This document shows positions 4,335 through 55,480 of a stretch of DNA of 64,000 nucleotides, in pieces. Within the stretch, counting starts at the first letter, position 1; each line of letters begins with the position of its first letter. The stretch lies in the NCBI RefSeq assembly GCF_001614315.2, contig NZ_LVEG02000011.1:62001-126000 (forward strand), written 5' to 3'. The notes beneath the pieces were generated by a model that made no database searches, was not told the origin of the DNA, and saw only the letters and a program-made list of their open reading frames with translations. The position numbers and the translations under genes were made by a program. Source of the DNA: Halofilum ochraceum (GTDB taxonomy: Bacteria; Pseudomonadota; Gammaproteobacteria; XJ16; Halofilaceae).

Positions 4335-4776
4335 GGTTCTCGCCAGGGCGCGAAGGGCACAAAGGGGCGCGAAGAAAAGGCGAGATCACGCAGAGCCGCG
4401 GAGCGCGCAAAGGGCCAAGGGCCAAGGGCCAAGGGCCAAGGGCCAAGGGCCAAGGGCCAAGGGCCAAGGGCCAAGGGCCAAGGGCCAAGGGCCAAGGGCC
4501 AAGGGCCAAGGGCCAAGGGCCAAGGGCCAAGGGCCAAGGGCCAAGGGCCAAGGAGCAGCTGGTGTAGGTCGGACTTCCAGTCCGACGCGTCGAAGGCTCC
4601 GCCCTGTCGGACTGGAAGTCCGACCCACACCCGCTTGAGGCCGCGTGCCTGCAGAAAACATCCCGCGTTATTCCCTGCCTTTCTCAGCGAACTCCGCGGC
4701 TCTGCGTGATATCGCCTTTGTCGTTTTTTGTCATTCCTTTGCGCTCCTTTGCGTCCTTTGCGCCTTGGCGAGAACC
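4335..4776. repeat. Composite palindromic repeat island with nested layers
   Basis: Outer arms GGTTCTCGCC (4335) and GGCGAGAACC (ending 4776) are inverted, each followed inward by CAAAGG-type words. The next layer is GATCACGCAGAGCCGCGGAG (from about 4384) against its inverted copy at about 4688-4710. Inside these lies a 7-bp tandem array (4412-4551) and a pair of inverted GTCGGACTTCCAGTCCGAC palindromes (4564-4586 and 4606-4630). No coding sequence is supported. The long Pro/Arg/Lys repeat reading frames through the array are artefacts of its 7-bp period. The island separates two same-strand genes, the methyltransferase and radC. Confidence 0.85.
4412..4551 (+). repeat. Perfect 7-bp tandem array, (GGGCCAA) x 20
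   Basis: Twenty uninterrupted copies of GGGCCAA fill exactly 140 bases. The same unit recurs at 25.0-25.4 and 52.1 kb, in both orientations. The perfect copies suggest recent expansion or frequent slippage. Confidence 0.97.
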
Positions 4777-17816: not shown

Positions 17817-18143
17817 AAGACCGGAACCACGAATGAACACGAATGCACACGAATGCTGCCGCAGGGCCCGGTGAGGTATCAGGAGCTTCGCTGAAAGCGC
17901 GAGGGCACTGACGTGGGGTTCGAGCACCACAGATAAACACAGATAAGATCAAAAGCAGGGCGGTCGATTGAGTTCACGCAACAGCGATTTCCAGCCGATC
18001 GCTTCTGACTTTCATCTGTGTTCATCTGTGGTTCTTTATCCGGGGATCCCGTTCCCACCGCTGTCAGCGAAGCTCCATAGCGCGTAATGCCCCTCAAGCC
18101 CCATTCGTGTGCATTCGTGTTCATTCGTGGTTCCCGTCTTTCA
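17814..18143. repeat. Three-layer palindromic repeat island between convergent genes
   Basis: Outer arms are 42 bp (17814-17855 and 18102-18143) and match at 41 positions; they consist of tandem ACGAATG(A/C)AC words. The middle layer is GGAGCTTCGCTGA (17882-17894) against TCAGCGAAGCTCC (18064-18076). The inner layer is CACCACAGATAAACACAGAT (from about 17929) against ATCTGTGTTCATCTGTGG (about 18013-18030). The arms run into the last codons of both flanking genes. No gene lies between. Confidence 0.9.
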
Positions 18144-25048: not shown

Positions 25049-25360
25049 GGGCCAAGGGCCAAGGGCCAAGGGCCAAGGGCGAAGGGCCAAGGGCCAAGGG
25101 CCAAGGGCCAAGGGCCAAGGGCCAAGGGCGAAGGGCCAAGGGCGAAGGGCCGAGGACCGAGGACCGAGGACCGAGGACCGAGGACGTAGGCCGGCTTTGC
25201 GCGGTCCGCGACGTTGGATCCCGGCCCGGACAATGTCACCGCGCAATGCCGGCATTCCCCGGCGGCGGAGGCCGGTGCACATCTGAAATATGACGGGCGC
25301 CGGACAAAGCAGGTCTACACAATCCTTGGCCCTTGGCCCTTGGCCCTTGGCCCTTGGCCC
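25049..25360. repeat. Mirror arrangement of 7-bp arrays around an inverted repeat
   Basis: Nineteen 7-bp units run from 25049 to 25181: GGGCCAA, with some GGGCGAA, one GGGCCGA and a block of GGACCGA. Then comes the GCCGGCTTTGCGCGGT / ACCGCGCAATGCCGGC inverted pair (about 25187-25260). The array then returns in the opposite orientation as five TTGGCCC units (25326-25360). The first unit directly follows the TAA stop codon of hemB. No gene is present; 25361-25470 holds only the cbpA leader. Confidence 0.9.
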
Positions 25361-25470
25361 TCAGCCCTTTCTTCCCTCCCGCTTGAACCAAACCCCACCC
25401 GCACCTATCTACAGGGAAGACTATCGAATCGATCCGCACGGAATACCAGCGAGGGAGGTCCGGGGTACTC

Positions 25471-52023: not shown

Positions 52024-52126
52024 ATGCCGGCTGTTGCCTTCGGCAAAAGCCGGCCTACGATCCTTGGCCCTTGGCCCTTGGCCCTTGGCCCTTGGCCCTT
52101 GGCCCTTGGCCCTTGGCCCTTGGCCC
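52024..52126. repeat. REP-like hairpin plus inverted 7-bp array, (TTGGCCC) x 9
   Basis: GCCGGCTGTTGCCTTCGGC and AAAGCCGGC form an imperfect hairpin (about 52026-52054). Nine perfect TTGGCCC units follow at 52064-52126, the opposite strand of the GGGCCAA unit, then one degenerate unit. The array ends about 70 bases before hisB. Confidence 0.92.
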
Positions 52127-52197
52127 TTGCGCCTGACCGGTGGCCTTTCGTAGCCGTGGGGCAGTATCATTGCGCCCCCTGCTGCCGGAACCGGGTC

Positions 52198-53523: not shown

Positions 53524-54270
53524 ATGCTGATGATCCCCGCGATCGATCTCAAGGAAGGCCGCTGCGTGCGCCTGCGCCAGGGGCGCATGAACGAGGACAC
53601 CGTGTTCTCCAACGACCCCGTCGCGGTCGCGCGCCGCTGGTATGAGGCGGGGGCGCGCCGCCTGCATCTCGTCGATCTCGACGGCGCATTCGCCGGTTCT
53701 CCATGCCACGCGGAAGTGATCTCGGAGATCGCTGCGGCCCTGCCCGAACTGCCGCTGGAGGTGGGGGGCGGTATCCGCGACATGGCGACGATCGAGACCT
53801 ATCTGGATGCCGGCGTCAGCTGGGCGATCATCGGTACCCAGGCGGTACGCGATCCTGATTTCGTCCGCCAGGCCTGCCAGCGTTTCCCGGGCCATATCAT
53901 CGTCGGTCTCGATGCGCGCGATGGCCGTGTGGCGGTCGAGGGCTGGGCCGAGGCGTCGAAGCTCGACGCGGTCGACTTCGCCCGGCGTTTCGCCAATGCC
54001 GGTGTCAGCGCGATCATCTATACGGACATCGGCCGCGACGGCATGCTCCAGGGTGTGAACGTCGATGCCACCGTCCGCATCGCCCGCGCGGCCGGCGTGC
54101 CCGTCATCGCCTCGGGCGGCATGAAAAGCCTCGACGACGTCCGCGCCCTCGCCGAGACCCGCGAACCGGGCATCGCCGGCGCCATACTGGGCCGCTCCAT
54201 CTACGAAGGCACCATCGACCTCGCGGAGGCCCAACAACTCGCCGATGCCCTGGCGTTGCAGGCCGTTTGA
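53524..54270 (+). CDS. hisA: Phosphoribosylformimino-5-aminoimidazole carboxamide ribotide isomerase
   Basis: A 248-residue TIM barrel. Catalytic Asp8 is in [19 protein letters not shown] and the second aspartate in [16 protein letters not shown]. The phosphate-binding loops [20 protein letters not shown] and [16 protein letters not shown] are complete. It supplies the substrate of HisH-HisF. Downstream, a 375-bp repeat island separates it from hisF, an unusual gap for this operon. Confidence 0.96.
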
Positions 54271-54280
54271 TGAAAAGTCG

Positions 54281-54655
54281 GGAACCACGAATGAACACGA
54301 AAGATTTGCCCGGAGCAAATCTTCGCGCCAGCCCCGAAGGGGCGAGGCGCAAGGATGCGCCGAGCAATGGACACGAATGGTTCCCGTGGGTCAGACGGCT
54401 TCGGGGAGCTTCGCTGACACCGAGTCCCCGCATCGAGGCCGAATATGAACCACAAAATGGACACAAGATGAACACAAAATGGGCCTTGGCAGCCCCGGTG
54501 TTTCGACGGGGCAAGAATTATTTTGTGTCCATTTCGTGTTCATTTTGTGGTTCTAATGAACGGGCTCGGCCCCACAGGCCTATCAGCGAAGCTCCCCGAA
54601 CAGCTAGGTCCCCACGAGATCCATTCGTGTCCATTCGTGTTCATTCGTGGTTCTT
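54281..54655. repeat. Three-layer palindromic repeat island inside the his cluster
   Basis: Outer arms GGAACCACGAATGAACACGAA (from 54281) face CATTCGTGTTCATTCGTGG (ending about 54653). The middle layer is GGAGCTTCGCTGA (54405-54417) against TCAGCGAAGCTCC (54583-54595), identical to the island at 17.8-18.1 kb. The inner layer is GAACCACAAAATGGACACAA (from about 54447) against TTCGTGTTCATTTTGTGG (about 54533-54551). A separate small hairpin, AAGATTTGC-CCGGA-GCAAATCTT, is at 54301-54323. No gene is supported. Confidence 0.9.
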
Positions 54656-54682: not shown

Positions 54683-55480
54683 ATGGCACTGGCGAAGCGG
54701 ATTATTCCCTGTATGGATATCGACGCCGGCCGGGTCGTGAAGGGGGTGAAGTTCGAGTCGATCCGGGATGCGGGGGATCCGGTCGAGATCGCGCGGCGCT
54801 ACGATGCCGCCGGCGCCGATGAGCTGTGTTTCCTCGACATCACCGCCTCGAGCGATGAGCGCGCGACACTGGTGCATGTCGTCGAGCAGGTCGCCGCCGA
54901 GGTGTTTATCCCGCTGACCGTCGGTGGCGGCATCCGCAGCGTCGACGACGTTCGTACGATGCTGAACGCCGGGGCCGACAAGGTCTCGATCAATACCGCT
55001 GCCGTTCATGAGCCGGAGCTCGTGCGGCGCGCGGCCGAGTGGGTCGGTTCCCAATGCATCGTGGTGGCCATCGACGCCAAGCAGGTTGGCGAGAACCCGG
55101 CCCGCTGGGAGGTGTTCACCCATGGCGGTCGGCGCACCACCGGGCTGGATGCGGTCGAGTGGGCGCAGAAGATGGTGGCGCTGGGCGCCGGTGAACTCCT
55201 GCTCACCAGCATGGATCGCGACGGGACCAAAGCGGGGTTCGACAATGCACTGACGCGCGCGGTGAGCGATGCCGTGAGTGTCCCCGTGATCGCGTCCGGC
55301 GGCGTCGGTACGCTGCAGCACCTCTGCGATGGCGTGACCGAGGGGCACGCGGATGCCGTGCTGGCCGCGAGCATTTTCCATTTCGCCGAATACACCATCG
55401 CCGAGGCGAAGGTGGAGATGGCGCGCCAGGGAATCCCCGTCCGACCCGTGCCCGACGCTGTGATAGAGTCGACCCCATGA
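54683..55480 (+). CDS. hisF: Imidazole glycerol phosphate synthase, cyclase subunit
   Basis: A 265-residue TIM barrel that forms imidazole glycerol phosphate and AICAR from PRFAR with ammonia from His[21 protein letters not shown] (catalytic Asp), [28 protein letters not shown] (second Asp), [15 protein letters not shown] and [15 protein letters not shown] are present. Start at 54683 has GGAGG 9 bases upstream, just inside the end of the repeat island. It overlaps hisE by 4 bases (ATGA). Confidence 0.96.

Follow-up and report, generated by a model that had tools for sequence, protein, structure and literature searches.

A nested palindromic element between hisA and hisF and its association with GxxExxY genes

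The hisA-hisF element

The window (the whole 64-kb stretch of DNA analysed here, part of a 3.64-Mb genome designated G000) carries intact hisA (53524-54270) and hisF (54683-55480, with its ATG at 54683) genes, both on the forward strand. Between them lies a 370-bp element, AACCACGAATG...CATTCGTGGTT (54283-54652, assigned to neither strand), which lies shortly after the hisA stop codon and has a bordering G on its left side and a C on its right. A sequence-only reading of the same DNA had described a three-layer island at 54281-54655 that splits hisA from hisF. Every layer was found again, with the ends now placed precisely, and the element does separate the two genes, but neither gene is broken.

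The outer left arm, built of the word CACGAATG on the forward strand, comes in two parts (54283-54301 and 54368-54380) that pair with the outer right arm, three CACGAATG words on the reverse strand (54621-54652); the first part belongs to inverted repeat I3, which is 100% complementary. The two parts are held apart by a 66-nt REP-like hairpin (54302-54367, unstranded) that was absent from the earlier description. The middle layer is marked by the 13-mer GGAGCTTCGCTGA on the forward strand (54405-54417) and its right copy TCAGCGAAGCTCC on the reverse strand (54583-54595), which lie in 18-nt pairing stretches (54400-54417 and 54583-54600) that are 100% complementary. The inner arms form inverted repeat I1, with a forward left arm of dialect CACAAAATGGACACAAGATG and class C core (54447-54480) and a reverse right arm (54520-54553), each of 34 nt and together 88% complementary, around an unstranded terminal loop in the innermost layer (54481-54519). 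The REP-like hairpin motif has six genomic copies, five of them at positions of CACGAATG elements, and its presence in the left arm is the reason that the hisA-hisF copy is an outlier with an asymmetry of +65 nt; without the hairpin the layers are symmetric.

In silico, the DNA of the island (375 nt) folds into a single long hairpin at -130.3 kcal/mol (z -17.6), and the z-score of the RNA fold is -16.3. The element bears terminal inverted repeats and codes for no protein, and no Rfam family matches anywhere in the 64-kb window. The window holds a second element of the same kind (17825-18132, unstranded) with outer CACGAATG arms, CTGCCGCAGGG on the left, GGAGCTTCGCTGA and a core of the CACAGAT type.

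A genome-wide family of nested palindromes

Elements of this kind are dispersed through the genome. The exact GGAGCTTCGCTGA 13-mer occurs 48 times and the outer ends 141 times, against 0 for the reversed pattern in both cases, and a total of about 65-70 elements is estimated from the motif and end counts. The significance of the family rests on these whole-genome counts, as the 13-mer with two mismatches is not significant in the window alone (27/100 shuffles). The resemblance between the two islands of the window is therefore neither chance nor a local duplication, and their earlier description as a modular element is borne out by the genome-wide family, whose cores are of discrete kinds: CACAGAT, AACCAAAAAATG or CACAAAATGG, a GxxExxY gene, or no core at all. 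After removal of redundant entries, the analysis covered at least 51 complete elements, which are about 156-490 bp long. Elements at closely examined loci are intergenic; at one locus (L048) a stretch of about 250 bp with a CACGAATG element is tandemly duplicated. Beyond the palindromic G/C border, the flanks of 53 elements show no clear or consistent target-site duplication, and a clean empty site resolved to the base was not recovered.

Every layer is palindromic, ends in AACC...GGTT and has arms of three words of about 8-10 nt (AACCAC-NNNN repeated). From the outside inwards, a layer has an arm of about 31 nt, a spacer of about 26 nt, GGAGCTTCGCTGA and a second spacer of about 29 nt, after which the next layer begins. 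Left and right halves agree: CTGCCGC is mostly present on both sides or on neither (Fisher p 8.5e-7), and core dialects are concordant in 31 of 34 cored elements. With O denoting the CACGAATG word, A CACAGAT, B AACCAAAAAATG and C CACAAAATGG, the concordant cases are 19 A/A and 12 B/B. The discordant ones are '-'/A (twice) and C/B (once), the last being consistent with a loose B pattern that may have caught a class C arm. Covariation, which the sequence-only reading had proposed to check, is not strong: complementarity in the stretch from arm to middle motif is only modest, which counts against the interpretation given below.

Layers are nested with marked central symmetry. In 40 nested pairs the inner layer lies within 10 nt of perfect symmetry in 72.5%, against a null mean of 7% and a null maximum of 25%; in the smaller sample of 15 pairs from the sister species G001 the value is 67%. 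The parent-child orders among the 40 pairs are O>A 20, O>B 11, A>O 4, O>C 3, O>O 1 and A>B 1, and these nesting figures come from an analysis separate from the one-mismatch patterns, which confuse CACGAATG and CACAGAT words. Because the order of the dialects in parent and child varies among pairs, the nesting records a history rather than a fixed plan. The earlier proposal of a conserved frame in which the core alone varies had to be abandoned: the order of layers permutes, with a CACAGAT layer outside a CACGAATG layer in several elements, the outer word differs at the same site between sister species, and every single layer forms a full palindrome of its own. The central geometry would fit the insertion of copies at the tip of an existing hairpin, if the order of events read from these sequences is correct.

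Comparison with G001, whose hisF is 97% identical, showed that sites are shared and that their contents often differ. All 24 comparable sites are occupied in both genomes, in a comparison that covered sites occupied in G000 and to which gains unique to G001 are invisible. At 12 of the 24, element identity is 0.57 or less (unrelated pairs, 0.49 +/- 0.08) despite flanks that are 82-94% identical. The two species differ in outer word at eight sites, one having CACGAATG and the other CACAGAT, and in core dialect at about five; the hisA-hisF site of G001 holds a single CACAGAT layer. A model in which shells are kept while cores are swapped was also rejected, since among the few G001 shells examined the orthologous shell rarely ranked first, so that turnover of content is not limited to cores. 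In the congener G002 there are no such arms, and hisA and hisF nearly abut, which makes this an empty site there. The full co-occupancy of G000 and G001 could reflect retention for a function and not ongoing mobility.

Inverted word arms around GxxExxY genes

One member of the family in G000 (L076, C14:7480-7966) has CACGAATG arms around an intact 133-codon GxxExxY open reading frame, whose product matches TIGR04256 at 127.9 bits and Pfam PF13366 (PDDEXK_3). The hisA-hisF element has inverted arms of three ACCAC-type words, and its word is the same as that of this coding copy. It contains no GxxExxY gene, and would therefore be a non-autonomous member of a provisional GxxExxY word-arm type. 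The genome's other GxxExxY gene is flanked by arms of a different word, CGCCAAG. At one site with GxxExxY genes in both G000 and G001, the arm words differ and the proteins are 60% identical; in the other G000/G001 pair the proteins are 84% identical and the word is the same.

Across phyla, 80 loci were sampled, of which 73 carried testable GxxExxY genes. Inverted arms with a score of at least 14 surround 54 of the 73, as opposed to 7 of 254 shifted windows at the same loci; these arms mostly contain three CACRRAG-type or CGCRRAG-type words. About a quarter of the GxxExxY loci showed no arms, which counts against the interpretation given below. Within the class to which the genome belongs, the minimum arm score at GxxExxY genes is 12, as compared with hisF loci, which score mostly 0 and at most 16. 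Triple CACRRAG arms were found in 20 of 40 genomes with a GxxExxY gene (more than 700 arms) versus 3 of 40 without one (10 arms), the latter hand-picked from genomes that gave no match, with neither size nor phylogeny balanced between the two sets; the reversed control gave 0, and GxxExxY-positive genomes that use other words score zero on this pattern. In two genomes (G086 and G209) many arms form head-to-head pairs with a spacing of about 240 bp, the arrangement that non-coding copies should show. Similarity between proteins correlates with similarity between arm words (Mantel r 0.48, p 0.0002, with phylogeny and base composition still contained in the correlation), and nearest-neighbour GxxExxY proteins share the same word in 47% of cases versus 18% expected. 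The correlation shows at least that arms and gene travel together.

The trpE-trpG junction (L083, L174, L335, L338) is occupied by a GxxExxY element with the word CGCCAAG in G000, G001 and G002, and the same junction in G016, from another family, holds one with the word CGCAAAG instead. A GxxExxY element in a Bryobacteraceae metagenome-assembled genome (L254) has two arm layers and a AAAGTCAAAACC module that resembles the AAAGTCAAAG found beside CACAGAT arms in G000.

GxxExxY is a stand-alone protein of 115-135 residues with conserved positions E, ExK and QxxxY. The predicted structure of a protein from a cultured relative (Mariprofundus) has a pLDDT of 96, and its best structural matches are the Cas4 protein SSO0001 (Z 9.7, rmsd 3.2, 96 residues) and lambda exonuclease. 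Archaeal Holliday junction resolvases give lower matches (Z about 6-7.5), in a range that, according to the tool's own warning, is commonly reached. No relatives of solved structure were found by sequence, no match was obtained among PADLOC defence or PHROGs phage families, and the gene occurs in no phage records and in eight plasmid records. We know of no activity for GxxExxY, and by family it is not a transposase, a point against a role in mobilisation.

Arms of this general kind are not unique to GxxExxY, because genes for the four-helix-bundle protein TIGR02436, the open reading frame family of 23S rRNA intervening sequences, are armed as well. They have inverted arms of their own with 7-nt words, and 13 of 22 such loci score 17 or more (the maximum at hisF is 16). 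That different proteins go with different arm types suggests that arm type is set by the protein and not by the host. The window also contains inverted heptamer arrays, (GGGCCAA)n at 25049-25160 and (TTGGCCC)n at 25326-25362, about 170-200 bp apart, and the GGGCCAA word also flanks the four-helix-bundle gene of the genome (L161). This pair resembles a non-coding element of the second class of arms. Further (GGGCCAA)n arrays lie at 4412-4547 and at 52062-52128 of the window, the latter directly upstream of the hisB region.

Relation to known elements and interpretation

Bacterial MITEs such as ERIC, Correia and Nezha have terminal inverted repeats, no coding capacity and tens of copies, and the family of the hisA-hisF element shares these three traits. 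It differs in its symmetric central nesting and in that no target-site duplication was found. The partner with the same ends, L076, encodes a GxxExxY protein with a nuclease fold, and we know of no transposase gene with such ends. REPINs and their RAYTs offer another likeness, being non-autonomous, hairpin-forming mobile DNA that relies on a separate protein (PMC3116915). REPs, however, are 20-40-bp palindromes tagged GTAG or CGTC (PMC3733652), whereas the units described here end in G|AACC...GGTT|C, have three direct words per arm, form nested layers of about 200 bp and have a PD-(D/E)XK nuclease as their associated protein.

Intervening sequences of 23S rRNA are short palindromic elements that replace a hairpin tip (tetraloop) and may carry one small open reading frame, the product of which, S23p, is a four-helix bundle (PMC4990558). 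The chromosomal TIGR02436 relatives of that reading frame also have inverted arms of 7-nt words. Intervening sequences sit in rRNA genes, whereas the hisA-hisF element lies between protein genes and has no four-helix-bundle reading frame, and its coding relative has GxxExxY instead. Their position at a hairpin tip would be paralleled by the inner layers, which in 72.5% of pairs lie no more than 10 nt off centre, if the presumed order of events is right; the outer layer of the hisA-hisF copy has no host hairpin around it. For the GxxExxY family (TIGR04256, PF13366), annotated by motif only, the likeness is that the coding copy of this genome has the same arms; the modelled resemblance to Cas4 and lambda exonuclease is qualified by the difference that GxxExxY is a stand-alone protein between inverted arms. 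In the open-access papers searched, GxxExxY appears only as a passing annotation, the six arm words looked for are absent, and there is no description of arms, non-coding copies or mobility; most subscription papers and all preprints fall outside this scope, so an earlier description is possible. Palindromic mobile DNA that codes for nothing itself and is paired with a separate protein is a known kind of element, and a nuclease partner and tip nesting would, if proven, distinguish this family.

The explanation that accounts best for these observations, and that we consider reasonably probable, is that the family consists of non-autonomous, GxxExxY-associated palindromic mobile elements that insert at hairpin tips and are mobilised or processed by GxxExxY. 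The island would then be MITE-like, two nested copies (a CACGAATG shell and a CACAAAATGG core) plus a small hairpin in one arm, of a type whose ends are inverted three-word arms and whose coding version carries a gene for a GxxExxY PD-(D/E)XK nuclease between them. The palindrome, which folds in silico, may form a hairpin or cruciform in vivo by extrusion; this structure might be cut or processed by a GxxExxY nuclease specific for its own arm word; and new copies would land at the tip of an existing hairpin, a mechanism suggested by the central geometry. Landing at tips would produce both the onion-like nesting and the turnover of content at fixed sites, with no detectable target-site duplication. 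We infer that the elements are active at present.

That the elements are short, palindromic, dispersed, non-coding and, where closely examined, intergenic would also be expected of miniature elements of a conventional transposase or a RAYT (REPIN-like), with GxxExxY as a passenger, and their ends would be conceivable binding sites for a transposase. We regard this as unlikely: the 53 elements yielded no target-site duplication, the ends are GAACC/GGTTC and not the REP tags GTAG or CGTC (PMC3733652), and the same kind of arm surrounds GxxExxY in most tested loci of many phyla. The matching of left and right modules, in CTGCCGC (Fisher p 8.5e-7) as in the concordant dialects, could instead arise if symmetry came from hairpin-templated copying or repair within one element, one arm being rewritten from the other, and not from insertion at the tip. 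Such copying alone brings in no new dialects, yet dialects recur across loci in varied orders and each layer has its own complete AACC...GGTT ends, which leaves templated copying rather improbable as the source of the symmetry.

It is more doubtful still that the element is a host structure, such as a hairpin for mRNA stabilisation, processing or termination, that is selected at operon junctions while its contents drift or recombine. The very stable RNA fold (z -16.3), the position shortly after the hisA stop codon and the occupancy of the same sites in the sister species all speak for such a role; but half of the sites hold content unrelated to that of the sister, whole word dialects are swapped, the window has no Rfam match and one copy is protein-coding.

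Returning to GxxExxY-associated insertion at hairpin tips, the island would most likely be a hitchhiker without coding function, belonging to a type of selfish DNA that has been little described. A broader and more tentative proposal, which we hold as possible rather than probable, is that of an undescribed class of selfish DNA that would be spread across many bacterial phyla and also reach some archaea. Its Cas4-like GxxExxY nuclease would recognise its own triple-word arms and propagate them, together with non-coding copies, by insertion at hairpin tips, whether of DNA or RNA and also of one another. For a GxxExxY family that is widespread and known by its motif only, the link to inverted word arms and non-coding hairpins provides a likely role, and it accounts for a class of unexplained intergenic repeats. 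The element family also offers a test of hairpin-tip insertion, the same geometry for which 23S rRNA intervening sequences still lack an explanation.
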